A model generated the notes under the pieces. That model saw only the letters and a list, made by a program, of their open reading frames with translations. It had not been told where the DNA came from and did not search any database. A stretch of DNA of 64,000 bases from Pedobacter panaciterrae (lineage in GTDB: Bacteria; Bacteroidota; Bacteroidia; Sphingobacteriales; Sphingobacteriaceae), in assembly GCF_013204795.1 (NCBI RefSeq), contig NZ_JABMKW010000020.1, forward strand, positions 992,001-1,056,000, written 5' to 3'. The translations under genes and the position numbers were made by a program. Position 1 is the stretch's first letter; every line of letters begins with the position of its first letter. Positions 47,336-61,007 of the stretch are shown here, piece after piece.

Positions 47336-48748
47336 ATGACTATTAAAAGAATTTTAGTTTTATTGTTACTGATTTCAGGACTTTCTCCTTTAAAATCAGT
47401 ACATGCGCAGCAAAAAGCGCCGAATAAATCGCTCCCTGCACTTCAACAGGATTTTGTAGACCTCGGATTTGGCATGTTCATCCACTATGGGATGCCTACT
47501 TTTATGAACCAGGACTGGTCGGATCCTGATGCAGCCCTTTCCCTGTTCAAATCACCTAAGTTTGATGCCGATCAGTGGGCTAAAGCAGCAAAATCGGCAA
47601 ACATGACCTATGGATGCTTAACAACCAAACACCATAGCGGTTTCCCTATCTGGAATACCAAAACTACGCCTTATAATGTGATGCATACGCCATTTGGACG
47701 TGATGTGGTAAAGGAATATGCCAATGCTTTCCGTAAAAATGGCTTAAAAGTAATGCTTTACTATTCCATTCTGGATACCCACCATGGCATCCGCCCCAAT
47801 CAGATCACTGCTGAACACATTCAAATGATCAAAGATCAGATCACCGAATTGCTTACCAATTATGGTGAAATAACGGCTCTGGTTATTGATGGATGGGATG
47901 CGCCATGGTCAAGAATCTCGTATGATGATGTACCATTTGAGGACATCTATCACCTGATCAAATCACTACAACCCAATTGTCTGGTAATGGATCTTAACGC
48001 GGCAAAATACCCGGCAGAAGCACTTTTTTATACCGACATCAAATCGTATGAGCAGGGCGCAGGGCAATTCATTTCTAAAGAGCACAATAAGCTGCCGGCT
48101 TTGGCATGTCTTCCATTGCAGGAAAACTGGTTTTGGAAAACATCTTTCCCGGGTACACCGGTTAAAAATGTAGACGAGCTTGTAAATAAATTTATTATAC
48201 CGTATAACAATGCTTACTGTAACTTCATCCTTAATGTAGCCCCAAATGCAGATGGCTTGATTGATGAAAATGCCGCGCAGGCTTTAAAAGAGATAGGCAA
48301 GCTTTATAAAAAACCTGAAAAGCTTCCGCAGGTACCGGAGCATGCTGCACCGATCATATCAAGTAACCTTGCTAAACATGTTAAAAGCAACAGCAGCTGG
48401 AGTGATGACATGAATATTATGGATTTTGCCAATGATGATAATTTTGGAAGTGCCTGGGTTTCAAATTCCGAAGTAAAATCGCCATGGTATGAGCTCAATT
48501 TTGAAAAGGCCAAACCTGTAAATATGCTGGTGATTACTCAGGGAAGGAATACAAAAAGTGCCTATACCATACAATACTTTGCCAGTGGAAAATGGCAGCC
48601 GCTTAAAACCGAAAAAGTAGACCAAAACAGCAAAATTCAGATTTTCCGCTTCGACAGACTTTGGGCAGAGAAAATAAAATTAGCTATCCAATCTCCTGAT
48701 GGCCCACCATCTATTGCCGAAGTTGGTGTTTATAATGAAAGGAGATAA
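47336..48748 (+). CDS. Alpha-L-fucosidase (GH29) with C-terminal discoidin-like domain
   Basis: This 470-residue protein has a signal peptide (to about residue 25, VHAQQ) and a GH29 TIM barrel starting FGMFIHYGMPTFMNQDWS. The likely nucleophile Asp is in ALVIDGWDAPWS (about residue 185). A C-terminal F5/8 discoidin-like domain (about 345-470, with DDNFGSAWVSNS) probably binds glycans. It removes alpha-linked fucose in the periplasm or outside. It is a lone enzyme with no SusC/SusD neighbour, so it does not form a classical utilisation locus. Confidence 0.9.
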   Translation: MTIKRILVLLLLISGLSPLKSVHAQQKAPNKSLPALQQDFVDLGFGMFIHYGMPTFMNQDWSDPDAALSLFKSPKFDADQWAKAAKSANMTYGCLTTKHHSGFPIWNTKTTPYNVMHTPFGRDVVKEYANAFRKNGLKVMLYYSILDTHHGIRPNQITAEHIQMIKDQITELLTNYGEITALVIDGWDAPWSRISYDDVPFEDIYHLIKSLQPNCLVMDLNAAKYPAEALFYTDIKSYEQGAGQFISKEHNKLPALACLPLQENWFWKTSFPGTPVKNVDELVNKFIIPYNNAYCNFILNVAPNADGLIDENAAQALKEIGKLYKKPEKLPQVPEHAAPIISSNLAKHVKSNSSWSDDMNIMDFANDDNFGSAWVSNSEVKSPWYELNFEKAKPVNMLVITQGRNTKSAYTIQYFASGKWQPLKTEKVDQNSKIQIFRFDRLWAEKIKLAIQSPDGPPSIAEVGVYNERR

Positions 48749-48842
48749 AAGCCGCTAAGGTTCCCAAATATTACTTTATAAAAAGTTTCTTTATGATAAA
48801 TTCAGTTTACTGACGTTACTAGTATAGTATTACTGAATTATT

Positions 48843-49898
48843 ATGAAGAGACTTTTTGCTATTATATCACTGTTATCTATTATCAGCTCCCACCAATTAT
48901 TTGCCCAGACCGGTTTCGAACAACTCATAAACGCAGGACCTGCCGATGCCACAAAACTTGTTGATGCTTATTCCAAGTCTCTTTTTAAGGGATTTGGATT
49001 GGGTATGAACAGTGGGTGGACAAACAGTGCCCAGACCCTCGGACTGTCCCATTTTGAGTTGCGTGTTACCGGAACTGGTGTAATAGTACCTGCCTCTGGC
49101 AAATCATTTGACGTTACCCGGATCGGTTTGTCGAGCAACCTGCGTCCAGCGAACCCCAATGACGTCATTTCACCCTCCTTTAGTGGCAGCACCAGAGCTA
49201 ATGGGCCTTTGATGGATGTTTATGATGAGAATAACAACAAACTGGTTTCTTTTGAATTACCCAGTGGGATGCTGGAGAATTATGTACCTACACCACAGAT
49301 CCAGTTAACTGTAGGCCTGCCCGCCAATACAGATGTTACTATTCGGGCTGCGCCAAGGTTTACAATTGGCCGGAAAATAGGTTCGGTTTCTCTGATTGGT
49401 TTTGGAATTAAACATAATTTTATGCGTGATTTATCTAAGGATGCGCCTTTTGATCTCGCCTTGGCCTTCAGTTACAATAACCTGAAATATAAGAAATCAC
49501 TCAACCTGCAACCACTTGAAAATTCGGTGCCGCAAGACAGCGAACAGTCTACAGACTTTTCCGGACAAGAGATTTTTGGGAACTTTAACAACTATCTATT
49601 CCAGGCATTGATATCCAAACAGTTTTCAGTGTTCACCCCCTACCTGTCTTTAGGCTACAACGTGTCGAGCGCCGATATGGGACTGAGCGGAAACTACCCG
49701 ATAATAAGCGGTTATAATGGTGACCAGGTTACTTATAAAACATTTTCTAATCCCGTAAGGATTGAGAGAACCTACCTAAAAGATTTTCGTGTTGATGCGG
49801 GTTTTCAGGTTAAACTTCCTATAGTCAGGTTTTATGCTTCTTATGGTGTTTCTGGAAATTACGGTATTGCCAATGCGGGCATCGGTATCGGCCTTTAA
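48843..49898 (+). CDS. Outer-membrane protein, DUF6588-like
   Basis: This 351-residue protein has a signal peptide (to about 21, LFAQT) followed by an amphipathic region (FEQLINAGPADATKLVDAYS) and a barrel-like series of alternating strands ending with NYGIANAGIGIGL. It resembles the DUF6588 family of outer-membrane barrels of unknown function. It probably lies in the outer membrane as a small porin-like or structural protein. The assignment is from pattern memory and moderate. Confidence 0.65.
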   Translation: MKRLFAIISLLSIISSHQLFAQTGFEQLINAGPADATKLVDAYSKSLFKGFGLGMNSGWTNSAQTLGLSHFELRVTGTGVIVPASGKSFDVTRIGLSSNLRPANPNDVISPSFSGSTRANGPLMDVYDENNNKLVSFELPSGMLENYVPTPQIQLTVGLPANTDVTIRAAPRFTIGRKIGSVSLIGFGIKHNFMRDLSKDAPFDLALAFSYNNLKYKKSLNLQPLENSVPQDSEQSTDFSGQEIFGNFNNYLFQALISKQFSVFTPYLSLGYNVSSADMGLSGNYPIISGYNGDQVTYKTFSNPVRIERTYLKDFRVDAGFQVKLPIVRFYASYGVSGNYGIANAGIGIGL

Positions 49899-49955
49899 TA
49901 TCTTTTATTTATATAATTTGGAATTGGCATGACGAAAAGCCGGTTATCAAATAAC

Positions 49956-49963
49956 TACTTTTG
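49956..49963 (+). promoter_or_regulatory. TAnnTTTG promoter element before the MFS pump
   Basis: TACTTTTG matches the -7 consensus and ends 4 bases before the ATG at 49968, which suggests a leaderless mRNA or an upstream promoter instead. Confidence 0.4.
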
Positions 49964-49967
49964 TGGT

Positions 49968-51170
49968 ATGACGCAAAAAAGATATCTGTTCTTAATTTTA
50001 ATACTTGGTTCACTCACCGCTCTCGGCCCCTTTTCTATCGATATGTATTTGCCGGGTTTTAAAGCAATAGCCAAAGACCTGAATACCACCGATGCGAAGG
50101 TAGCCTGGTCGTTATCAAGCTATTTTATAGGTATCTCTGCTGGTCAGTTACTTTATGGACCATTGTTAGATCGTTTTGGTCGTAAGAAACCCCTATTTAT
50201 TGGTTTACTGGTATATATTCTGGCAGCTGCCGGATGTGCGCTGGTTAAAGATATTGACTCGTTTATTGTATTGAGGTTTGTTCAGGCAATTGGAAGCTGT
50301 GCGGCTACTGTTGCATCGGTTGCCATGGTTCGCGATTTGTTTCCTGTTAGTGAAAATGCCAAGGTATTTGCCTTATTGATGCTTGTGCTTAGCGTTTCGC
50401 CTATGATTGCTCCTACCGTAGGTGGCTATGTTACGGTGGCTTTTGGCTGGCATACAGTGTTTTTGATTTTACTGGGCTTAGGCTTGTTTAATTTGATAGC
50501 CAGCTGGCTCTGGTTGCCCGAAAGTTATAAGCCGGACACCACCATGTCATTAAAGCCTAAACCCATAATAAACAACTTTATAGCGGTGTTACGTGAACCT
50601 ACATTTTACACGTATGCGTTTACCGGAGCTATGGCATTTGCTGGTTTGTTTGTATACATTACCAGCTCTCCTATTCTTTTTATGTCGCTATTTAAAGTGA
50701 AAGAAGAGACTTATGGATGGATCTTTGCCTTTCTTTCTGTAGGGTTTATTGGCGCAAGTCAGGTAAATACATTGATGCTAAGGAAATATAAAAGCGAGCA
50801 ATTGATTTTTGCCGCTTTAATTGGGCAGGTTATTACGGTAATTGTATTTTTAATTGGCAGTATTAATGGCTGGTTCGGGCTTGCCGAAACTATTGGTTTT
50901 CTGTTTGTTTTCTTATGCTGTTTAGGAGTTGCCAACCCGAATGCTTTGGCGCTTTCGCTTGCTCCTTTTTCAAAAAATGCAGGTAGTGCATCTGCGTTGA
51001 TGGGCGCGCTTCAAATGGGATTAGGAGCATTGGCATCGGCATGTATTGGCTTTTTTGAGCAGACATCGGCTGTGCCGATGGTTTTGATTATGACAGTGAC
51101 CTCTGTTATTGCGCTTACTGTACTTTTTTTTGGAAGAAAGAATATTGTGGCAGCGCCAGCGGGTAATTAG
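49968..51170 (+). CDS. Bcr/CflA-family drug efflux transporter (MFS)
   Basis: The ATG at 49968 (MTQKRYLFLILILGSLTAL) begins the first helix; an in-frame ATG at 49929 adds a polar segment before it. The 400-residue protein has 12 membrane helices and the MFS signature GPLLDRFGRKKPLFIG between helices 2 and 3. FSIDMYLPGF in helix 1 and VAWSLSSYFIGISAGQLLYG are typical of the Bcr/CflA drug-proton antiporters. It exports hydrophobic drugs or metabolites across the inner membrane. Neighbours give no substrate clue. Confidence 0.9.
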   Translation: MTQKRYLFLILILGSLTALGPFSIDMYLPGFKAIAKDLNTTDAKVAWSLSSYFIGISAGQLLYGPLLDRFGRKKPLFIGLLVYILAAAGCALVKDIDSFIVLRFVQAIGSCAATVASVAMVRDLFPVSENAKVFALLMLVLSVSPMIAPTVGGYVTVAFGWHTVFLILLGLGLFNLIASWLWLPESYKPDTTMSLKPKPIINNFIAVLREPTFYTYAFTGAMAFAGLFVYITSSPILFMSLFKVKEETYGWIFAFLSVGFIGASQVNTLMLRKYKSEQLIFAALIGQVITVIVFLIGSINGWFGLAETIGFLFVFLCCLGVANPNALALSLAPFSKNAGSASALMGALQMGLGALASACIGFFEQTSAVPMVLIMTVTSVIALTVLFFGRKNIVAAPAGN

Positions 51171-51273
51171 TTTTTTTTCTCGACGATCGCCTTATAGCGA
51201 CCGCTAAATATTTCTCCTCCCCTGCGTAGGGGTATAAGTAAATCATGTTGTCTTACTCTAAAACAAGACAACA

Positions 51274-52398
51274 ATGAACATCAAATCTTTTATAACAGCA
51301 TCAGTATTATTAGCTACCGGTCTAGTTGCAAATGCGCAAAATCAAATGCCAGGCAAAATGCATATTGGTATTGTGTATCCTTTAAGTACTAACGGAACAC
51401 ATGCCCCTTTAGATACCAATAACCTTTCTTTTAACTTACTTGGGGGAGTATCTGCAGCTGAACGTGGTTTGGCCTTTGCAGGGCTTTCGAATGTGGTATT
51501 ACATGATGCCAAAGGGTTCCTGTTTGCAGGATTTTCTAATCATGTAATCAAAAATGCAGACGGCGGACAATTTGCTGGTTTCCTTAACACTTATGGCGGT
51601 GGCGATGGTTTTGCTTTTGCAGGCTTTACCAACATATCATCAGGGAATGTAAAGGGTGCTCAATTTGCTGGTTTCGCCAACATTGCTAAAGAAATGAATG
51701 GTGCCCAGTTTGCAGGCTTCGGCAATGTGGCCAAAGGGGGAACAGCATCTCAGTTTGCAGGTTTCATCAATATAGCAAAAGATGTGAAAGGTTCTCAAAT
51801 GGCTGGCTTCATGAATGTAGCCAAAGATGTAAAAGGATCTCAAATTGCAGGCTTTATAAATATTGCCAAAAAGGTTAAAGGCGCCCAGATAGCCGGTTTT
51901 ATAAACATCGCAGAGAGCAGTGATTTCCCGATAGGTATTGTAAACATTATAAAAAACGGGGAGAAAAGTATTGGGGTAAGCACCAACGACAACCTGACCA
52001 CCATGCTAACCTTCAGATCGGGAGGCAGAGTACTTTATGGTATTCTGGGAGTTGGATACAACTTTAAAAACGACAAAGAAGTATATGCAGCTGAGGCCGG
52101 TATGGGAGCTCATTTTTTCCAGTCAAACAGCTTCAGGTTAAATACTGAATTAACGGCGATGAGTTTAGAGAGCTTTAAACATGGAGAATATTTTAGTTCG
52201 TCGATTCGCGTATTACCTGCTTTGAAGATCGCTAAATTTCTGGAGATCTATGGCGGTCCGTCTCTTAACTACGTAAACACCAATACCATTGAGGGTAAAG
52301 ATTTAAACAAGCACTACATATCTAAATGGGGTAACAAAGGAAACGACTTCCAGGGACTATATGTAGGCTATACCGGAGGTATTCAGGTAATCTTTTAA
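51274..52398 (+). CDS. LA_2272-type surface-repeat protein
   Basis: This 374-residue protein has a signal peptide (to about residue 21, VANAQ) and, from about residue 65 to 220, ten or so repeats of about 15-16 residues on the pattern QFAGFxNIAKxxKG (for instance KGSQMAGFMNVAKDV). They are probably stacked strands of a beta-helix or barrel. A C-terminal domain follows (IGIVNIIKNGEKSIGVSTND, ending GLYVGYTGGIQVIF) that looks like a small outer-membrane barrel. The same repeats and C-terminal motifs occur in the STN-domain protein at 56451. The function is unknown; a surface exposure is likely. Confidence 0.85.
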   Translation: MNIKSFITASVLLATGLVANAQNQMPGKMHIGIVYPLSTNGTHAPLDTNNLSFNLLGGVSAAERGLAFAGLSNVVLHDAKGFLFAGFSNHVIKNADGGQFAGFLNTYGGGDGFAFAGFTNISSGNVKGAQFAGFANIAKEMNGAQFAGFGNVAKGGTASQFAGFINIAKDVKGSQMAGFMNVAKDVKGSQIAGFINIAKKVKGAQIAGFINIAESSDFPIGIVNIIKNGEKSIGVSTNDNLTTMLTFRSGGRVLYGILGVGYNFKNDKEVYAAEAGMGAHFFQSNSFRLNTELTAMSLESFKHGEYFSSSIRVLPALKIAKFLEIYGGPSLNYVNTNTIEGKDLNKHYISKWGNKGNDFQGLYVGYTGGIQVIF

Positions 52399-52462
52399 CC
52401 TAATGCAACCTTTAATTGAAATTAACAATCATCGTTTATAACACACAAAAAACCAAACTACT

Positions 52463-53113
52463 ATGAGAAACCTATTATTGTACGTTTACATCAGTCTGCT
52501 TTTTATCTCCTGTTCAAAAGACAGACTAACAGCCAGCGGTGATAAGATCACAGAGGAACGTAACCCAGGAAACTTTACCGGTATAAATGCAAGTGGCTCC
52601 AACCCTGTCCATGTGGTTTATGGCGCCGATTTTAAGGTGGTATTAAAAGGATCTGACAACCTGATCCCTCACTTTAAAACCAAGGTTATGAGCAGCGTAT
52701 TGTATCTGGAATATGAGCGCACAAGTGTACAACATGACGATATTGAGGTATTTATTACCATGCCTTTGATAGACCGTGTTTCGTTAAGCGGTAGCGGGGA
52801 GGTTGAAATAAAAGGTCAGTTTCCTGATGTTGATACATTTAGGGCTTCTCTTAGCGGATCCGGAGAAATTGAGGTTGACGAGACCTTTAATGCCAGACAG
52901 GCAAAAGTAGATATTTCAGGTTCTGGCAATGCAGATCTGGAGAAGCTAAATGCTAAAAATGCCGACATAGACATATCTGGAAGTGGTGATGTGAAAATCA
53001 AAGTACAGGATCTGTTAAAGGCTGCAATAAGCGGCAGCGGTAAAGTATACTACTGGGGTAGTCCACAGGTTAATTCCGATATCAGCGGTTCTGGAAAAGT
53101 AATTAAATTTTAA
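52463..53113 (+). CDS. GIN-domain (DUF2807) lipoprotein
   Basis: This 216-residue protein has a lipoprotein signal (LLFISC, Cys about 17) and a right-handed beta-helix of GIN-domain type. It starts GNFTGINASGSNPVHVVYG and repeats the SGSGEVEI/SGSGNADL/SGSGDVKI/SGSGKVIKF turns, spaced by about 20-24 residues. Such proteins are common in Bacteroidota and are thought to bind or stick at the cell surface. It is followed after 11 bases by the sterol desaturase-like gene, so the two share a transcript. Confidence 0.87.
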   Translation: MRNLLLYVYISLLFISCSKDRLTASGDKITEERNPGNFTGINASGSNPVHVVYGADFKVVLKGSDNLIPHFKTKVMSSVLYLEYERTSVQHDDIEVFITMPLIDRVSLSGSGEVEIKGQFPDVDTFRASLSGSGEIEVDETFNARQAKVDISGSGNADLEKLNAKNADIDISGSGDVKIKVQDLLKAAISGSGKVYYWGSPQVNSDISGSGKVIKF

Positions 53114-53124
53114 AAACTACGGTC

Positions 53125-54678
53125 ATGGCTTCACTTCAATCAATTTGGCAAAACTTCATCTCTACATTCGGAGCAGCAAGAATTCCGATTAATGACATCC
53201 ATCAGCTAGAGAAAATTGCCCCCGACTTACTGATATATGCATTGCCGTTGGTGTTCTTTTGCACGGCTTTGGAATGTGGATTTTCTCACTTTGCTGAACA
53301 TAAAAGCTATGAGAAGAAAGAAACCATAGGTTCACTTTTCATTGGCCTTGGAAATTTAGCTGTTAACCTTTTAATGAAAGCAATATTGCTTTACGGTGCA
53401 GTGTGGATTTACAATGTTTTGCCATGGCGCATGCATTTGAGCTGGTGGAGCCTGATTCCGTGTTTTATCATTTATGACTGCTGCAGTTACTGGTCGCACC
53501 GCATATCTCATTTCAACAGGTTCTTTTGGGCAACACATGTAGTGCACCACTCGGCCGAGCATTACAATTTAACGGTGGCTTTCAGACAAAGCTGGGTGCA
53601 GCATTTTAAAACTGTATTTTTTATACCGGTGGCTTTAATGGGTTTTAACCCGGTTATATTCTTTGTTGCCAGTCAGTTGAGCACGTTATATCAGTTTTGG
53701 GTACATACCGAAGCCATTGGAAAATTGCATCCTTTTATTGAAAAGTACTTTGGTACGCCATCTAACCACAGGGTGCATCACGGCAGTCAGGAGAAATACC
53801 TGGATAAGAACTTTGGTGCTACGTTTATGATCTGGGACCATTTGTTTGGCACTTTTCAATATGAAGAAGAAAAGCCCGTGTATGGCCTTACTACGCCTGT
53901 AGGCAATAAAACGAATCCTTTTATTTTGAACTTTCATGAATACAGGGACATGATAAAGGATGTGAAGCAGAGCGATGGGATTAAAGAAATGCTTTTCTTC
54001 ATTTTTGCCAGTCCGGGTAAGATTTACAGACACAAACTTGCCAATATTGAGCAGGCCGATAAAGCTCCGGTTTTAGATAAAGCAACTTACCTTAAGAACA
54101 AGGGAATAAAGGTTTTAAAGTTTGCAGGTATGCTGCTGGTGATCATTTTATTGCTTAGTGAGTCGTTAGATGTTTTAAGCCAGCCTTTAAAGAAAGCGGT
54201 TGAAGCTGAAACCTCGGCCCTGCCTACTCCTATTGGAGAAAACCTGTTGTTTTTTCTGCAGAGAAACCCTGATGCCAATACGGTAATTTATGAGCTTAAC
54301 TTTAAAAGTGAAGGGGTTTTGGATCGTGAAAACCCAGTTAAAGGATCGTGGATCAGGTATGCAGAGCAAGGCAAATACAAAGAGCTGACCGGTATTGAGC
54401 GCAGGTTTGCCTATGGGGTAAAATGTAAAGCTTTGGAGAATGGGGAATTTGAGATCAGGTTGGTTGCGTATAAAAAGCTGCCATTGTATCTTAAAAGGTC
54501 TGAAATTGATAATAAGTATAAGATTTATATAAAGGATGAGGGCAAGGATTTATTGTTGAAACGGGTTTTTGTTAGGGTAAATGGTGGTTCGTTCTGGTTC
54601 CCAAAGGTAGAGTACATTGATTTGATAACAGTGAATAGCGCGTCAGGGATTGAGTTTTTAAAGCGGATTGAGATTTAG
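53125..54678 (+). CDS. Sterol desaturase/fatty acid hydroxylase-like protein fused to a DUF4833-like domain
   Basis: This 517-residue protein has an N-terminal membrane-bound di-iron hydroxylase (about 30-300) with the histidine motifs YWSHRISHFNRFFWATHVVHH and SNHRVHHG, plus HTEAIGKLH. Four or more helices flank the motifs. After a further membrane helix (about residue 335-352) comes a soluble C-terminal domain (about 375-517, starting LLFFLQRNPDANTVIYELNF). It resembles the DUF4833 domain of outer-surface proteins. It probably hydroxylates a lipid; the C-terminal domain may bind the acyl group or the envelope. The fusion is unusual. Confidence 0.85.
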   Translation: MASLQSIWQNFISTFGAARIPINDIHQLEKIAPDLLIYALPLVFFCTALECGFSHFAEHKSYEKKETIGSLFIGLGNLAVNLLMKAILLYGAVWIYNVLPWRMHLSWWSLIPCFIIYDCCSYWSHRISHFNRFFWATHVVHHSAEHYNLTVAFRQSWVQHFKTVFFIPVALMGFNPVIFFVASQLSTLYQFWVHTEAIGKLHPFIEKYFGTPSNHRVHHGSQEKYLDKNFGATFMIWDHLFGTFQYEEEKPVYGLTTPVGNKTNPFILNFHEYRDMIKDVKQSDGIKEMLFFIFASPGKIYRHKLANIEQADKAPVLDKATYLKNKGIKVLKFAGMLLVIILLLSESLDVLSQPLKKAVEAETSALPTPIGENLLFFLQRNPDANTVIYELNFKSEGVLDRENPVKGSWIRYAEQGKYKELTGIERRFAYGVKCKALENGEFEIRLVAYKKLPLYLKRSEIDNKYKIYIKDEGKDLLLKRVFVRVNGGSFWFPKVEYIDLITVNSASGIEFLKRIEI

Positions 54679-54709
54679 GGGCGTGCGGGCACGCCTGGGT
54701 AATCAGCCA

Positions 54710-54792
54710 CGTCATCCTGAATTTATTTCAGGATCTCTCACTAGAAAGGCGTAATAGCGCTTCCGAGATCCTGAAATAAATTCAGGATGACG
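54710..54792. repeat. Palindromic dispersed repeat, element D
   Basis: Two perfect 28-base arms (54710-54737 and 54765-54792, beginning CGTCATCCTGAATTTATTTC) flank a 27-base loop. A half copy lies within the fecR relic at 22334-22361. The element lies between the desaturase stop and the sigma-factor promoter. Confidence 0.87.
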
Positions 54793-54846
54793 ATCGCCGA
54801 CGAGGAAGGATGACGACCATGTGGGACAACGCTTAAAAAAAACTAA

Positions 54847-54854
54847 TATATTTG
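54847..54854 (+). promoter_or_regulatory. TAnnTTTG promoter element of the sigma/FecR/STN operon
   Basis: TATATTTG matches the -7 consensus, 40 bases before the sigma start codon. No clear -33 element was recognised. Confidence 0.5.
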
Positions 54855-54894
54855 AACAGACCAGCAATAAATTAAAGTAGTAAGAAACAAACCA

Positions 54895-55476
54895 GTGATA
54901 AATCAAAAAACCGCCCTTCTGCATCAATATGATGATAAAGCATTTGAGCAAATGTTCAAAGCGCATTATAAAGAGCTTCACTCCTATGCCAATGTAATGC
55001 TTAGGGACGAAGACACTGCGGAAGAAATTGTACAATCTATGTTTCTTAAATTCTGGGAAAAGAGAGAATTGTTAAACGTGCAGACATCAATAAAAGCATA
55101 TCTGTACAAATGTGTTTATAACGATAGCTTAAACTACCTTAAACACCAAAAAGTTAAAACGAAATACCAGGATTTTGCCGCATATACCATGAACGATCAT
55201 CATGAAGCTGCATCATCAAGAGTAGAGCTTACTGAACTTCAATATAAGCTGCAGGAGGCGTTAAATGAATTACCTGAGCATTGCAGAACCATTTTCCAGA
55301 TGAGCAGGTTTGAGGAATTGAAATACAGAGAAATAGCCGAGCAACTGGATCTTTCTATTAAAACAGTAGAAAACCAGATGGGCAAAGCTTTAAAGATATT
55401 GCGTTTGAAACTGGCCGATTTCATCACGCTCATTTTACCAGGCATAATCATGTATTACAAAGATTTTTTTAATTAA
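54895..55476 (+). CDS. ECF-type RNA polymerase sigma factor
   Basis: The start is a GTG, since no in-frame ATG lies upstream. The 193-residue sigma factor has region 2 (DKAFEQMFKAHYKELHSYAN, then EEIVQSMFLKFWEKRE) and region 4 (LPEHCRTIFQMSRFEELKYR, then IAEQLDLSIKTVENQM). It has no signal peptide. It should direct transcription of its own operon and of unknown targets, and it is followed by its FecR-type anti-sigma factor 9 bases later. This is the intact counterpart of the deleted sigma relic at 31554. Confidence 0.93.
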   Translation: MINQKTALLHQYDDKAFEQMFKAHYKELHSYANVMLRDEDTAEEIVQSMFLKFWEKRELLNVQTSIKAYLYKCVYNDSLNYLKHQKVKTKYQDFAAYTMNDHHEAASSRVELTELQYKLQEALNELPEHCRTIFQMSRFEELKYREIAEQLDLSIKTVENQMGKALKILRLKLADFITLILPGIIMYYKDFFN

Positions 55477-55485
55477 GAGGAACAG

Positions 55486-56451
55486 ATGACCGAGGAAATA
55501 TTGATAAAGTTTCTTTTAAAAGAAACAAGTGAAGAAGAAAGTATTGCTGTACAAAAATGGCTGGATGAGGCTACCTCTAACAGGGCCGAATTTACCCAGC
55601 TGGAAAGAATCTGGACTGCAAGTAAAAGTTTAAGTACTACCAGCAATGTTGATGAAGAACAGGCATGGACAAAATTCAAAGCAAGAACGGCTTCGGGATC
55701 AAAGGAAGCTATTGTGCGACCAATTAAGCAAAATTTCGGGTGGTTAAAAATTGCCGCTGTATTGGTTTTAGTAGCCGGAGCATGGATGATGTACAATGTA
55801 TTTGGCCCCGCAAATTATACGGATCTTGTGGCCAGCAATAAGGTGATCGTTGAACACCTTCCCGACGGATCGGAAGTAACTTTGAATAAAAACTCGCAGA
55901 TCAGCTATGTGACAGATTTTAAAGACGAACGCAGTGTGAGGCTTAAACAAGGTGATGTGTTTTTTAATGTGGCGCACGATAAATCAAAACCTTTTGTAAT
56001 AAAGATTAATAAAGTATCGGTAACGGTTGTTGGTACTTCCTTTAATGTGAAACACTTAAAAGGAGAAACTGAGGTAATTGTAGAAACAGGTATTGTAAAA
56101 GTGAGCAATGGCAATGAAATGGTAGAGCTGCATAAAGGAGAGAAAGTTTTGATTAAAGAGGTATCGCCTAAATTGATTAAAGAGCAGAATACAGATCAGC
56201 TGTATAGCTATTACCGCAGCGGAAAGTTTGTATTCTATAAAACACCTCTTTGGAAGGTGGTAGAGGTTTTAAATGAGGCTTATGATGTGCATATCGTTAT
56301 ACAAGACCCTTCTATTGCCAATGAAACACTTAATACTACGCTTGAAGAGGCTAATCAATTAGATAAAAACCTGGGGTATATTAAAGAGACTATGCAGAAT
56401 TTAAAAATAGATCGTAACGATGGACAGATCACGCTGTCTAAAATTAAATAA
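55486..56451 (+). CDS. FecR-type anti-sigma factor
   Basis: This 321-residue protein has a cytoplasmic N-terminus (EEILIKFLLKETSEEESIAV) that binds sigma, one membrane helix (LKIAAVLVLVAGAWMMYNVF, about 85-104) and a periplasmic FecR domain (SNKVIVEHLPDGSEVTLNKN, then VVGTSFNVKHL). A C-terminal STN-like segment follows (YKTPLWKVVEVLNEAYDVHI), the DUF4974 part. It holds the sigma factor until a periplasmic signal arrives. It starts 9 bases after the sigma gene, and its stop overlaps the STN gene start by 1 base (TAATG). Confidence 0.93.
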   Translation: MTEEILIKFLLKETSEEESIAVQKWLDEATSNRAEFTQLERIWTASKSLSTTSNVDEEQAWTKFKARTASGSKEAIVRPIKQNFGWLKIAAVLVLVAGAWMMYNVFGPANYTDLVASNKVIVEHLPDGSEVTLNKNSQISYVTDFKDERSVRLKQGDVFFNVAHDKSKPFVIKINKVSVTVVGTSFNVKHLKGETEVIVETGIVKVSNGNEMVELHKGEKVLIKEVSPKLIKEQNTDQLYSYYRSGKFVFYKTPLWKVVEVLNEAYDVHIVIQDPSIANETLNTTLEEANQLDKNLGYIKETMQNLKIDRNDGQITLSKIK

Positions 56452-58241
56452 TGAGATTAAAAATAATCATAGCCCTATTATTTATAACCGGATATTGTAA
56501 GGCCCAGTCGTCCGTAACCAATTACCTCCGTAATTTGGACAGAAGGGTTAATCTGGATATAAAACAACAACCGATTTCTGAGGTGCTCAACAAAATGAGT
56601 AAGGCAGGCGATTTCTATTTTTCGTACACAGGCTCTTTATTTAAGCAGGATAGCATAGTAAACCTGAAGGTGAAGGATATGCAGGTTAGAGACATACTTG
56701 ACCGCTTATTTAACGGAAAAGTGGATTATAAAGAAACCGGACAGTACATTATACTTCGCTATGCAGCCAACCACCTGACTATTGAACCCGAAAATATTAC
56801 CAGCGCGGATAAACTGTACATCATTAGCGGATATGTTATTGATACGGAAACGGGCAAAAAAATAAAACAGGCAAGCGTTTACGAAAAACGTTTACTCCAA
56901 TCGACACTTACGGATAACGAGGGTTATTTCAGGCTTCGCTTTAAGGGTGAACATACGGACGTTACTTTAACGGCCAGTAAAGATACCTACAGGGATACTT
57001 CGCTGGTTTTTCTGGCTGATATTACAGTTAAGCCCGAAGGTTATAAAGAGGAAGATTCTGAGCAGGGCAGTGAGTTTTTTAATTCGATTGAGAACTCGGG
57101 AATCAGCAGGTTCTTTATTTCTTCAAAACAAAGAATGCAGAGTTTAAATATTCCTGATTTCTTTGCAAACACCCCCTTTCAGGCTTCGCTTACCCCCGGT
57201 TTAAGTACACATGGGATAATGAGTTCGCAGGTGATAAATAAAGTATCACTGAATATTTTAGGTGGTTATACTGCCGGAACAGATGGTGTTGAGGTGGCCG
57301 GTGTGTTTAACATTACCAAAGGAAACGTGAAGAAGTTGCAGGTAGCCGGTGTGTTTAATGGCGTGGGCGGCTCTGTAGATGGTGTACAGGTGGCTGGGGT
57401 GCTTAATGATGTAAGAACGAGTGTTAAAGGTGTGCAGGTTGCTGGTTTGCTTAACCACGTGAAAGAGAAGGCCGAAGGTTTTCAGATTGCAGGGCTTGCC
57501 AATGTGGTATCCAAGGATGCGAAAGGTATGCAAGTTGCAGGCCTGATCAATGTGGTATCTCAGGACACAAAGGGTTTTCAGATTGCAGGGCTTGGGAATC
57601 TGGCTTCTAAAAACCTTAATGGAATGCAAATAGCAGGTCTTGGTAACATCACCTCACAACGAATGAAGGGGACTCAGATTGCCGGTTTGTTTAATTACGC
57701 TAAGGAAATGGATGGTTTTCAGATTGGTATCGTAAATATTTCAGGAAAATCGGATGGCTATAGCCTAGGCCTGATCAATTTTGTTAAGAATGGCTATCAT
57801 AAGCTTAGTTTCTCTACAAATGAGACCATAAATGCGAATGTTTCTTTTAAAATGGGGAATGCAAAGTTGTACAACATCATATTGGCTGGAAAAAACTTTG
57901 CCGATTCTGCTAATATTGAAACTGCGGGTTTAGGCTTTGGCCACGACTTTATATTCAGCAACAGATTCTCTGTAGCGGCCGAGATCACCTCTCAATATTT
58001 GTATCTGGGCAATTGGGATTACTCCAATTTCCTGCACAGGTTCCAGACCAACCTCCAGATTCAGTTGGTTAAAGGTATAACCGTATTTGGCGGACCGGTT
58101 TATTCTATTTACTCTACAGAAGCTCCTGAAGGTTCAAGCGGCAAAGGCTACAAACAAAACATAGCGCCCGCAAAGCATGATTACATCAGCAAAAGGGCTA
58201 AGGGTTGGATTGGCTGGAATGTGGGTATTACCATTATGTAG
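56451..58241 (+). CDS. STN-domain signalling protein with LA_2272-type surface repeats
   Basis: This 596-residue protein has a signal peptide (to about 19, CKAQSS), an STN domain (about 30-105, VNLDIKQQPISEVLNKMSKA) and a carboxypeptidase-regulatory-like domain (about 120-190, SGYVIDTETGKKIKQASVYE). A series of LA_2272-type repeats (about 255-440; for example FQIAGLANVVSKDAKGMQVAG) precedes a barrel-like C-terminus. STN domains normally sit on TonB receptors and signal to FecR; here no TonB receptor barrel or plug follows. The repeats match those of 51274-52398. It probably senses something through the repeat region and signals to the adjacent FecR. Confidence 0.85.
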   Translation: MRLKIIIALLFITGYCKAQSSVTNYLRNLDRRVNLDIKQQPISEVLNKMSKAGDFYFSYTGSLFKQDSIVNLKVKDMQVRDILDRLFNGKVDYKETGQYIILRYAANHLTIEPENITSADKLYIISGYVIDTETGKKIKQASVYEKRLLQSTLTDNEGYFRLRFKGEHTDVTLTASKDTYRDTSLVFLADITVKPEGYKEEDSEQGSEFFNSIENSGISRFFISSKQRMQSLNIPDFFANTPFQASLTPGLSTHGIMSSQVINKVSLNILGGYTAGTDGVEVAGVFNITKGNVKKLQVAGVFNGVGGSVDGVQVAGVLNDVRTSVKGVQVAGLLNHVKEKAEGFQIAGLANVVSKDAKGMQVAGLINVVSQDTKGFQIAGLGNLASKNLNGMQIAGLGNITSQRMKGTQIAGLFNYAKEMDGFQIGIVNISGKSDGYSLGLINFVKNGYHKLSFSTNETINANVSFKMGNAKLYNIILAGKNFADSANIETAGLGFGHDFIFSNRFSVAAEITSQYLYLGNWDYSNFLHRFQTNLQIQLVKGITVFGGPVYSIYSTEAPEGSSGKGYKQNIAPAKHDYISKRAKGWIGWNVGITIM

Positions 58242-58923
58242 CGGTTAACATTTTTACCACTTCGGCTACTCCGGCGGTTGCGGTTTTTTCTATTTTAACT
58301 ATGTTTTTATAATGGTCTACCTCAGGTATTTTAGGGTCAATTATGTATTTAACTGTGGTACGCGGAACAAAATTTATTAAACCTGCTGCCGGATAAACGG
58401 CCAGAGAAGTGCCTATCAGCATAAAAACATGGGCTTTTGAGCAAATTGAGGTAGCGGGGCCTATCATAGGCACATCTTCTCCAAACCAAACTACATGTGG
58501 CCTTAGTTGCGCGCCAAGTTCACAATACTCCCCTGTTTTAAGCTCCCATCCGTTTATCGGGTAAGTTAAATCGGGGTTCAGATCTGATTGTGAGCGGGTA
58601 ATTACGCCGTGTAAATGGGTAACTTTTGTTGATCCGGCACGCTCATGCAAATCATCTATGTTTTGGGTAATGATGTGTACATCGAAAAACTCTTCGAGAT
58701 CAGCAAGGGCTTTGTGAGCGGCGTTTGGCTTTGCTTCCAGCACTTGCTTCCTTCTTTGATTATAGAAGTCTTGTACCATTGCAGGATTGCGTTTCCAGGC
58801 CTCTGGTGTGGCTACATCGTAAACGTTGTATCCTTCCCACAGTCCATCGGTATCTCTGAAGGTTTTTAAACCGCTCTCGGCGCTGATGCCTGCTCCGGTT
58901 AATACTACAAGTTTTCTTTTCAT
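58234..58923 (-). CDS. Sir2-family NAD-dependent deacylase (CobB-like)
   Basis: The ATG at 58923 begins the family start (MKRKLVVLTGAGISAESGLK); an in-frame upstream ATG adds a non-family stretch. The 229-residue sirtuin has the NAD motifs GAGISAESGLKTFRD and TQNIDDLHERAG, the catalytic His in VTHLHG, and LRPHVVWFGED. The zinc-binding cysteines usually seen between the sheets are only partly present, as in the small class III (CobB/SIRT5-like) sirtuins. It removes acyl groups from lysines. It converges with the STN gene, overlapping by 8 bases. Confidence 0.92.
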   Translation of the reverse strand: MKRKLVVLTGAGISAESGLKTFRDTDGLWEGYNVYDVATPEAWKRNPAMVQDFYNQRRKQVLEAKPNAAHKALADLEEFFDVHIITQNIDDLHERAGSTKVTHLHGVITRSQSDLNPDLTYPINGWELKTGEYCELGAQLRPHVVWFGEDVPMIGPATSICSKAHVFMLIGTSLAVYPAAGLINFVPRTTVKYIIDPKIPEVDHYKNIVKIEKTATAGVAEVVKMLTAT

Positions 58924-58997
58924 AGAGAGTTGTTTGGTTTTTGAGTTAGCTGTTTGGTTAAAAGGCTGTGCAATTGCAAATGCCCTTTCCGCGGTCA

Positions 58998-59089
58998 TCA
59001 TATCGACGATAGGAGAGATCTCTTGGTTATGCCAATTTGCCTGGCACAGCTATTTAGTGATCAAGAGATCTCTCCTATCGTCGATATGA
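58998..59089. repeat. Palindromic dispersed repeat, element C
   Basis: Two 28-base arms (58998-59025 and 59062-59089, TCATATCGACGATAGGAGAG and its complement) flank a 36-base loop. The arms differ from element A only near the outer end (ATATCG for CTCG). Confidence 0.82.
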
Positions 59090-59183
59090 CGAATTCCCCG
59101 AGATGACGGGGTGTGCTATTCGGTTCTCAGGATGACGAGCTACTTCAGTATGACTGACCACAACTAATTTCCTTTTAAATTTA

Positions 59184-59212
59184 AAAGGCTGTTCTTTAGA
59201 ACAGCCTTCAAT
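59184..59212 (-). terminator. Hairpin terminator after the DUF6580 gene
   Basis: AAGGCTGTTC / GAACAGCCTT form a perfect stem with a short loop, 42 bases beyond the minus-strand stop, followed by an AT-rich stretch with a T run. Confidence 0.7.
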
Positions 59213-59253
59213 ATTTCAATATAATATTAATATAATAAATACTTTAATTACAA

Positions 59254-59835
59254 TTATACCGCTGTATTTGCTGATAAACTTAAACGGGGATACTTGGCTC
59301 TTAATACCTCAAATGCACCGAACATAACGGCACCGTAAGCAAGTGTTCCGTAAAGGAATAACCTTTCGTAAGGTACTGCTGCGCCTAAGCATTTAATGTA
59401 TCCTGCCAGGGTTGGCTCGTACAATCCCGGGAAATACATCACACCAATATCGGCAACAATCCAGTGTACCAGAACTGCTAATACAGATGCACCAAGGAAA
59501 CTTAATACCGTTACCTTTCTAATGATGAGCTTGGCAACCAGAACCATTAGCACAAACGCGATATAGGTCCAGTACCAGCCTGCATAAAAGAAGCCGTAAC
59601 CAGATGTTTTTGCGATGAAAATATCGCTTAACAATAAAAGCAACAAGGGAAATCCGAAGGCTTTATAATTGTTATTAAAATATGCTCCTCCAAATAAGGC
59701 TATCGCCCCTACTGCAGAGAAATTTGCAATTTCTTTGAAATTATCAGAAAGTGGTGCAGCAACACGAATGAGGCTGATCACTACAATAATTAGCAAAAGA
59801 ATGGCAGTACGTGGATTGAATTTAAATTCAGACAT
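59254..59835 (-). CDS. DUF6580 family integral membrane protein
   Basis: The ATG at 59835 (MSEFKFNPRTAILLLIIVVI) is chosen, since the preceding codons are polar and non-conserved. The 193-residue protein has five to six helices, with NFSAVGAIALFGGAYFNN and FPLLLLLLSDIFIA, the typical DUF6580 pattern of putative transport proteins related in layout to the substrate-binding subunits of ECF transporters. It ends the minus-strand group of surface lipoprotein genes, so it may import what they bind. Confidence 0.75.
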   Translation of the reverse strand: MSEFKFNPRTAILLLIIVVISLIRVAAPLSDNFKEIANFSAVGAIALFGGAYFNNNYKAFGFPLLLLLLSDIFIAKTSGYGFFYAGWYWTYIAFVLMVLVAKLIIRKVTVLSFLGASVLAVLVHWIVADIGVMYFPGLYEPTLAGYIKCLGAAVPYERLFLYGTLAYGAVMFGAFEVLRAKYPRLSLSANTAV

Positions 59836-59915
59836 ATTTTTAAAATTATAACACAAAGTTATATTATTTCTATGGTATAAAAAAACAAGGCATTTATTAT
59901 GAAAACCGTTATATT

Positions 59916-61007
59916 TTAATGAAACACAAACGTTGCCGGGAAATAATATCCTTCGTAAGGAATCTTTTTAACTAAGTTACCCGATGTGGCATCGTAAAAG
60001 TAAATGTTGTTTACGCCATAATTGGTTCCATAACCGTCTTGAACTGTTGTGGTTACAATCTGGTTGGTTTTAGCATAATAACCAAGGTTCTTTTTGTAGA
60101 ATGACTGCTTATCAGGAGTGGTTATAAAAGGCTGGTCAAGTGATGCTTTATTTCCTTCGATATATCTGTACAGCATTTTACCCCCGCCAAATCCCGGCGA
60201 TTTTAACAGGTAAACGGTGTTTTCTTGGGTAGATGCGATTATTGGCGATGAAAACCAGGCAAACCATGTGCCTGCAGGTGTGAAAGGCAATTCTACACTA
60301 TCGGTAGCTAAGGTTAAAGGATCGGAGTTATAAAGGAATTTTCCTTTTGTATACCATACTTTATTGTTTGGAGTTTGAGCAAAACCCAGCGTAACATCTT
60401 TTATTTTTTTAACTACTGTAAGATCTGCAGCATTGTAAATTACTGCTCCCTCTGATTGAGAAAGGGTGTAAACGTATTTTCCAGCTTTAAACATATCTCC
60501 TGTTTGGCCACTGGTTCCGGCAAGTTGTGTAGCGGCGTAAGTTTTAAGGTTGACTTTAAAGATACCTTTGCTGCTACTTAAAAGGCCATTGTTTTCGTCG
60601 AGACCTACAAAAGCACGCCAATCGCTTTGAGGCGATGCAGGAATACGGCCAATTTCTTTAAGTGTCTTAGCATCAGCTACTACAACAGGGCCACCTATTT
60701 TACTTACTACATATAAATTTTTATTGAATATGGTTGCAAACTGAATGGTTGAGCTTTTAGGCTCAAAGTCTTTTCCAGGGTTTTCTTTCTGAAAAACGCT
60801 GTCTTTTAATGTGCCTGAAACAGCGTCGAAAAAGGTTACTGAACCTGTACCATGACCATACCAGCCTTCGTTAATCACAAAGAATCCGTCTTCGAATTTT
60901 CCTTGCTCAGGTTGTTGAATTTCTTGGTTGTTGTCTTTTTTACAAGAAAATAGAGTTCCGGCTAATACTGCAAGTAAAAGCGATTTTTTAAAACTAAAGT
61001 TGTTCAT
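59916..61007 (-). CDS. DUF5074-like beta-propeller lipoprotein
   Basis: This 363-residue lipoprotein (signal ending TLFSCKKD, Cys about 22) has YncE/DUF5074-type propeller repeats. It begins GFFVINEGWYGHGTGSVTFF and continues with blade strands such as LYVVSKIGGPVVVADAKTLK. Acidic and lysine residues follow the Cys, as in Bacteroidetes surface-lipoprotein signals. Such propellers include the cobalamin-binding BtuG of Bacteroides; a similar role here is an inference. It is the third lipoprotein gene of its group. Confidence 0.75.
   Translation of the reverse strand: MNNFSFKKSLLLAVLAGTLFSCKKDNNQEIQQPEQGKFEDGFFVINEGWYGHGTGSVTFFDAVSGTLKDSVFQKENPGKDFEPKSSTIQFATIFNKNLYVVSKIGGPVVVADAKTLKEIGRIPASPQSDWRAFVGLDENNGLLSSSKGIFKVNLKTYAATQLAGTSGQTGDMFKAGKYVYTLSQSEGAVIYNAADLTVVKKIKDVTLGFAQTPNNKVWYTKGKFLYNSDPLTLATDSVELPFTPAGTWFAWFSSPIIASTQENTVYLLKSPGFGGGKMLYRYIEGNKASLDQPFITTPDKQSFYKKNLGYYAKTNQIVTTTVQDGYGTNYGVNNIYFYDATSGNLVKKIPYEGYYFPATFVFH

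Follow-up and report, generated by a model that had tools for sequence, protein, structure and literature searches.

A sigma/FecR gene set with an STN–LA_2272 repeat protein and no detected TonB receptor domain: a candidate variant of cell-surface signalling in Pedobacter panaciterrae and related genomes

Genes and domains at the locus

The window analyzed here is a 64,000-nucleotide stretch of the Pedobacter panaciterrae genome (contig NZ_JABMKW010000020.1, positions 992,001 to 1,056,000), and all positions below are those of the window. Its subject is a group of six genes at 51274–58241, in which an extracytoplasmic function (ECF) sigma factor and a FecR anti-sigma factor are followed by a protein that joins an STN domain to LA_2272-type repeats (hereafter the STN-LA protein). 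Most descriptions of FecR-dependent cell-surface signalling concern TonB-driven iron or glycan receptors. An earlier note on this DNA, made by a model from the letters alone, had placed the six open reading frames (ORFs) and named their domains, and the ORF check and domain scans agreed with it. The genes and elements were as follows.

51230..51252, + strand: promoter-like motif GGGTA-N13-TTGTC, 21 bp upstream of the ATG of the LA companion
51274..52398, + strand: LA companion, a 374-amino-acid repeat protein without STN, homologous to the C-terminal part of the STN-LA protein
52463..53113, + strand: GIN/DUF2807 (Toastrack) protein, called a lipoprotein by eye
53125..54678, + strand: FA_hydroxylase and DUF4833 fusion, a neighbour in few loci
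54847..54854, + strand: TAnnTTTG box upstream of the sigma gene, resembling a primary-sigma −7 element
54895..55476, + strand: ECF sigma factor (TIGR02985)
55486..56451, + strand: FecR anti-sigma factor with FecR_C, 321 amino acids
56451..58241, + strand: STN-LA protein, a transducer-like protein of 596 amino acids with STN, carboxypeptidase-regulatory-like domain (CPD) and LA_2272 repeats; no TonB plug detected
56619..56762, + strand: STN domain (Pfam, residues 57–104)
56823..57005, + strand: CPD (CarbopepD_reg_2), of the SusC N-terminal extension type
57291..57785, + strand: eleven LA_2272-type units (xGxxN, residues 283–439; period 16, last two 14)
57813..58238, + strand: beta-rich C-terminal region, possibly an outer-membrane anchor (low-confidence models)

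The sigma and FecR genes were separated by 9 bp and the FecR and STN-LA genes shared one base, which represented a tight operon. Behind the motif the order was LA companion, GIN gene and hydroxylase fusion, and the GIN gene at 52463 likely belongs to the transcription unit of the companion. Its product matched DUF2807 with 108.2 bits (cut-off 24.2). Signal peptide and lipoprotein assignments were made by eye. An Rfam scan of 48000–60000 found nothing above the Rfam thresholds.

The STN-LA protein comprised, in order, a signal peptide, STN, CPD, the eleven repeat units and the beta-rich C-terminus. A profile of ten STN-LA proteins aligned with ten receptor-type proteins of the same genome over their STN-CPD half (hhalign probability 99.3, E = 1.2e-20), and the CPD part matched SusC homologs of known structure. 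CPD was present in all 40 family members that were scanned individually, and a TonB plug or receptor domain was detected in none of them (E ≤ 0.01). This bears out the earlier proposal of a sigma/FecR/STN set in which repeat proteins take the place of the TonB receptor; the refuting case also raised there, a receptor barrel at the C-terminus, did not appear in the members scanned.

Against the LA_2272 repeat family NF047436, the STN-LA protein scored 32.7 bits, above the curated cut-off of 25, and the companion 22.2 bits, under it. The companion matched the C-terminal part of the STN-LA protein with 35% identity (E = 3.2e-37), and it was the only other match to that part in this genome. Its own repeats had mostly a 15-residue period.

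The AlphaFold2 models were too weak to name a fold, because the alignments covered only the window proteins and the proteins of four close relatives. The modelled companion, with a 15-residue period of one 8-residue strand and a short second strand, appeared closer to a solenoid, and the modelled STN-LA protein, with 14-residue strands, closer to a barrel. No Foldseek match at E ≤ 0.001 was obtained with the companion model; the best Foldseek matches were mostly outer-membrane barrels, none of them at E ≤ 0.001 and all from low-confidence models. PDB entry 1dab is presumably a beta-helix. A fold-recognition table of 2008 pairs LA2272 with that entry (table in PMC2387172). Judged from these models, the beta-rich C-terminus may sit in the outer membrane.

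Conservation of the set and lineage of its FecR and sigma factor

The four named loci nearest to the STN-LA protein all belonged to Pedobacter (88–98% identity). A search of the family Sphingobacteriaceae gave matches, covering the STN-LA protein or only its LA part (E ≤ 1e-12), in 99 of 251 genomes, from which 120 family loci were assembled: 115 places with an STN part among the matches listed, the four Pedobacter loci and the window. The fetched stretches were mostly 13 kb. A FecR gene lay beside the STN-LA gene in all 120, within 251 bp in 119 and at 1,048 bp in one. It was upstream on the same strand at no more than 150 bp in 114 loci and at 251 bp in one; in the other five it was convergent with the STN-LA gene (within 38 bp in L095, L097, L103, and L136; at 1,048 bp in L101). 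A sigma gene was found on the same strand within 2 kb upstream in 114 of the 120; in the five convergent loci it accompanied FecR, and the stretch of L149 ended before the sigma region.

The other neighbours were less constant. A separate LA gene was found in 54 of the 120 family loci, a close GIN relative in 25, and the hydroxylase in 16; the last was therefore placed outside the core set. The earlier note had treated all six genes as one group: for the LA companion and the GIN protein the link stood, through gene order and, for many loci, the motif described below, and for the hydroxylase fusion it did not.

In the wider class, a family profile (E ≤ 1e-15) matched 121 of 395 genomes, some weakly, and 40 loci were chosen from the list of matches. 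An STN-CPD-LA gene was held by 34 of them, and six (L207–L212) had an LA part only. FecR was adjacent in 34/34 of the former and sigma present in 33/34 (none found in L198); neither FecR nor sigma was found in any of the six LA-only loci (0/6 each). A GIN profile gave matches in 38 of the 160 loci in total, including 13 of the 40 class loci. FecR and the STN-LA gene thus occurred together in all 154 fetched STN-LA loci, and STN-LA proteins apart from FecR, the refuting case named in the earlier note, were not found among them. Given its recurrence in 154 loci, the pairing is more than chance. In a phylum sample of 296 genomes, every listed match outside the class (E ≤ 1e-40) was confined to the LA part and began at profile position 204 or later; the LA domain therefore has the broader distribution, and fusions to STN were encountered in class genomes alone. 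No relative turned up in one scan of viral contigs.

This genome had 39 FecR matches, and most of those inspected preceded a long STN-CPD frame. In a FecR tree of 75 rows, 44 FecRs linked to STN-LA proteins (a sample of 27 from the family and 17 from the class) were split by one branch from 31 other FecRs of this genome, with a support of 97 in the Shimodaira–Hasegawa-like approximate likelihood ratio test (SH-aLRT); two of the 31 rows were the same gene, and not all of them precede a receptor. When 13 FecRs from three genomes of other families were added, the split still required one change. A sigma tree of 57 rows displayed the same split (support 76–77). The STN-LA FecR and sigma factor form their own lineage within this sample. 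Outside the family, the STN-LA FecR was the sole FecR match in 21 of 34 genomes (5/8 and 16/26), some of which were incomplete, down to 57%. Among class genomes without a family match, 20 of 21 had no FecR match.

Another STN-CPD protein of this genome, 495 amino acids long and encoded directly behind a FecR gene (L213:3353-4840, − strand; G000:C7), likewise had no C-terminus of receptor size. It looked like an independent replacement of the receptor, because its FecR nested among the other FecRs of the genome.

The promoter-like motif and the genes behind it

The motif was found by counting spaced word pairs upstream of companion and sigma genes; a MAFFT alignment of the upstream regions was uninformative. 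With the spacing left free (9–20), the gap was 13 at 22/22 companion sites and 21/23 sigma sites. The 160 loci (2.07 Mb, the six LA-only loci included) contained 121 exact sites, compared with 3 for the reversed control. With up to one mismatch, the motif stood before sigma or the LA companion in 92 of the 154 STN-LA loci (control 1). By gene, it was upstream of 48 of 72 LA-only ORFs (control 0), 52 of 162 sigma ORFs (control 1), 13 of 161 FecR ORFs (control 0) and 2 of 154 STN-LA genes (control 0). It was found before sigma or companion in none of the six LA-only loci (up to one mismatch), and the exact motif was found in none of 20 other stretches of this genome (L213–L232), most of which carry sigma and FecR genes.

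In the window, an inverted repeat, TGTTGTCTT...AAGACAACA, at 51246–51273 overlapped the 3′ element of the motif and ended at the companion ATG. Its arms differed by eye in some relatives, yet they could partly still pair. This repeat could be an operator.

A stricter form, TARGGGTA-N13-TTGTCW, was found at 99 sites in 68 of the 395 class genomes, and 51 of the 99 lay within 12 kb of a listed family match. It was present in 46 of 84 genomes with a listed family match vs. 22 of 311 others; these counts ignore relatedness, the 84 being the genomes whose places were among the matches listed and the 311 including genomes with weaker matches.

Besides LA, sigma, and FecR genes, other genes stood behind the motif. 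Fifty-one sites in the 160 loci were not assigned to those three types (46 by another assignment rule). Their downstream ORFs of at least 140 amino acids comprised 11 small outer-membrane barrels, 9 lipid A acyltransferases, 7 CPD proteins, 4 GIN proteins, and 4 singletons, one of them PepSY-like; the families were checked on ten proteins, two of which gave no family. The remaining unassigned sites had a short ORF or none. The CPD proteins, of about 780 amino acids, were those of L099, L174, L186, L189, L197, L201 (ending at the stretch edge), and L203; the one scanned with Pfam had CPD domains only and no plug. In 20 regions far from the set (16 from genomes with a listed match and 4 from genomes without), a GIN protein was directly behind the motif in five and a DUF4097 Toastrack protein in one more, the ten proteins for this domain scan having been picked by look; three far sites lay inside long ORFs (L249, L255, and L256).

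Five of the seven exact sites in this genome were inside long ORFs, and the only intergenic ones were the window site and G000:C12:752607 (L238). The latter, far from the window, was 48 bp upstream of a small outer-membrane barrel gene. This barrel was kept as a candidate target because it was homologous to motif-linked barrels in 11 other loci near STN-LA sets. Gene order links the companion and the GIN protein to the set, as does the promoter-like motif in many loci, and the genes downstream of the motif suggest a link with envelope composition.

Proposed signalling and alternative readings

We consider it likely that the set is a FecI/FecR-type cell-surface signalling system that controls envelope genes, and that its outer-membrane transducer is the STN-CPD-LA protein and not a TonB receptor. 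Computation gave the parts on which this proposal builds, namely the gene set with its domains and conservation, the FecR and sigma lineage in the sample, and the motif with its downstream genes; the protein contacts, the proteolysis, the pairing of sigma with the motif, the membrane placement, the signal, and the feedback are what we infer. In the transducer, an LA_2272 repeat domain and a beta-rich C-terminus would follow the STN-CPD half of a SusC-type protein. At rest, STN would meet the C-terminal part of FecR and hold FecR, and thereby sigma, in check. A change in the repeat domain, either lost packing or assembly in the outer membrane or a contact at the surface, would alter the contact between STN and FecR; FecR would then be cut and sigma freed. 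The freed sigma factor would read GGGTA-N13-TTGTC promoters and drive the LA companion, GIN proteins, and small outer-membrane barrels, and in some lineages also its own operon and lipid A acyltransferases. The companion may feed back on the sensor, as suggested by its sharing the repeat domain of the sensor and its position behind the motif.

This scheme is close to that of FecI/FecR/FecA systems, which have an ECF sigma factor, a FecR with a C-terminal domain, and an STN-domain partner encoded by adjacent genes. For FoxA/FoxR, a passage of PMC11637429 proposes that the STN-containing signalling domain shields the anti-sigma factor from proteolysis until the signal arrives. Since the window set encodes both STN and FecR_C, and the two genes always occurred together in the loci fetched, the same contact probably forms here. 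Energy supply and ligand recognition must be different from FoxA/FoxR, because the plug and the TonB barrel were not found and LA_2272 repeats stand in their place. The putative targets differ as well, being envelope proteins and not a nutrient receptor.

Dma/Das of Bacteroides thetaiotaomicron, in the parts of PMC13088901 consulted, likewise places a Bacteroidota ECF sigma factor under control from the outer membrane, with no TonB receptor involved, and its outer-membrane effects concern vesicles. As described there, Dma is one protein that reaches from the cytosol to an outer-membrane barrel, with an anti-sigma domain, a transmembrane helix, a long disordered tether, and the barrel; in the window the task is split between the STN-LA protein and a FecR of 321 amino acids that has FecR and FecR_C. 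The SusC proteins of ECF/anti-sigma glycan loci share with the STN-LA protein the STN domain and the carboxypeptidase-regulatory-like N-terminal extension (sections of PMC7782687), whereas the STN-LA protein has no plug, barrel, or SusD. In the SusCs of those sections the extension precedes STN, whereas STN comes first in the window protein and in the ten receptor-type proteins of its genome. The LA_2272 surface repeat proteins (NF047436) have the same repeat, but those outside the class showed the LA part only among the matches listed, and the window protein has STN fused to it. DUF2807 belongs to the Toastrack domain (DUF2807/DUF4097), which a passage of PMC11237479 links to membrane stress; unlike those membrane-stress proteins, the window GIN protein is likely a secreted lipoprotein behind an ECF-like motif. 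A gene table in PMC12893687 lists an "STN and carboxypeptidase regulatory-like domain-containing protein," and a Leptospira review mentions a regulator resembling FecR in a genome with TonB receptors that reportedly have no signalling extension (passage of PMC12655853), which may be a parallel case. No description of an STN-LA or receptor-free FecR system was found among the papers listed in searches of the open-licence literature.

Several observations weigh against the proposed signalling. Scanned alone, the window protein scored 27.8 bits for STN, just below the Pfam cut-off of 28.4, and STN was matched in only 23 of the 40 family members (E ≤ 0.01). The AlphaFold2 models were poor, with a predicted local distance difference test score (pLDDT) of 35.5 for the STN-LA protein and 46.9 for the companion. 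The trees were quick ones with long branches, and their comparison FecRs came from four genomes. In the five convergent loci, the STN-LA gene is not co-transcribed with FecR. The window sigma gene had no GGGTA-N13-TTGTC and carried the TAnnTTTG box instead, a primary-sigma consensus reported for a flavobacterium in a passage of PMC9723704. With one mismatch allowed over the whole of the 160 loci, the reversed control was common (119 sites, against 310 for the motif). The reversed control of the stricter motif gave about 89 sites in the 395 genomes (hand count; 15 in one genome) against 99, so the excess of the motif lies in its place and not in its number, and away from the locus most of its sites may be due to chance. 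In this genome the exact core motif had 7 sites vs. 13 for the reversed control, and a wide sigma regulon here was dropped.

A possible but doubtful explanation is that the STN-LA protein is an adhesin that senses a ligand or a contact, with variable repeats facing outward and the binding of a surface or polymer, not the state of the envelope, as the signal. The repeat number speaks for this: two close orthologs (L053 and L054) had exactly one 16-residue unit fewer than the window protein, and by a crude motif count the copy number varied across the 154 STN-LA proteins. NF047436 is named a surface repeat, and Pfam labels DUF2807 a putative adhesin head. However, the lipid A acyltransferases and small outer-membrane barrels behind the motif fit envelope upkeep better, and several Q, G, and N repeat positions were invariant across 40 members, unlike a changing ligand surface.

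It is unlikely that the motif is the site of some other regulator (a repressor or a different sigma factor), with the sigma/FecR set a mere co-regulated neighbour. The inverted repeat that overlaps the 3′ element in the window would suit such a regulator, as would the 62 of 154 loci in which no motif (up to one mismatch) stood before sigma or companion, a count that also weighs against the signalling we propose. Nevertheless, two elements at a near-fixed spacing of 13 resemble a sigma site, the motif accompanies the set from genome to genome as counted above (relatedness ignored), and no exact site was found in the 20 other stretches of this genome or in the six LA-only loci.

Quite improbable is an adaptor role, in which the STN-LA protein would serve a separate TonB receptor encoded elsewhere and the system would still be TonB-driven. 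TonB receptors are where STN and the SusC-type N-terminal domain normally occur (sections of PMC7782687), and the CPD protein of about 780 amino acids stood behind the motif in 7 loci; on the other hand, the one such protein that was scanned carries no plug, and 21 of the 34 genomes outside the family have no other FecR match. That the STN-LA protein is a TonB receptor remnant, shortened or decayed, which retained FecR next to it but no longer signals, as the missing plug and barrel domains might suggest, is hardly credible and was rejected: the frames were long and open in nearly all 154 loci (short in L102, L167, and L168), the C-terminus is of another family whose members also occur on their own, and within the sample sigma and FecR make up a separate lineage.

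A bolder extension of the proposed signalling can be offered only tentatively. The STN-LA set may be the main or ancestral FecR pathway of the class, serving outer-membrane homeostasis with a repeat protein that would sense how proteins of its own type assemble or crowd; through their shared repeats, the LA companion and the STN-LA sensor would compete or co-assemble, and signalling through TonB receptors would be a later expansion. If true, the response would measure and correct the surface composition of the envelope by self-sensing through shared repeats.

This analysis found no known function for LA_2272 or GIN proteins, and the set offers a possible role for both. In many families of one class, genomes seem to use the FecR chassis with no receptor, and the set provides a candidate envelope-control pathway with a putative promoter and putative targets, namely GIN and LA proteins, small barrels, and lipid A acyltransferases.

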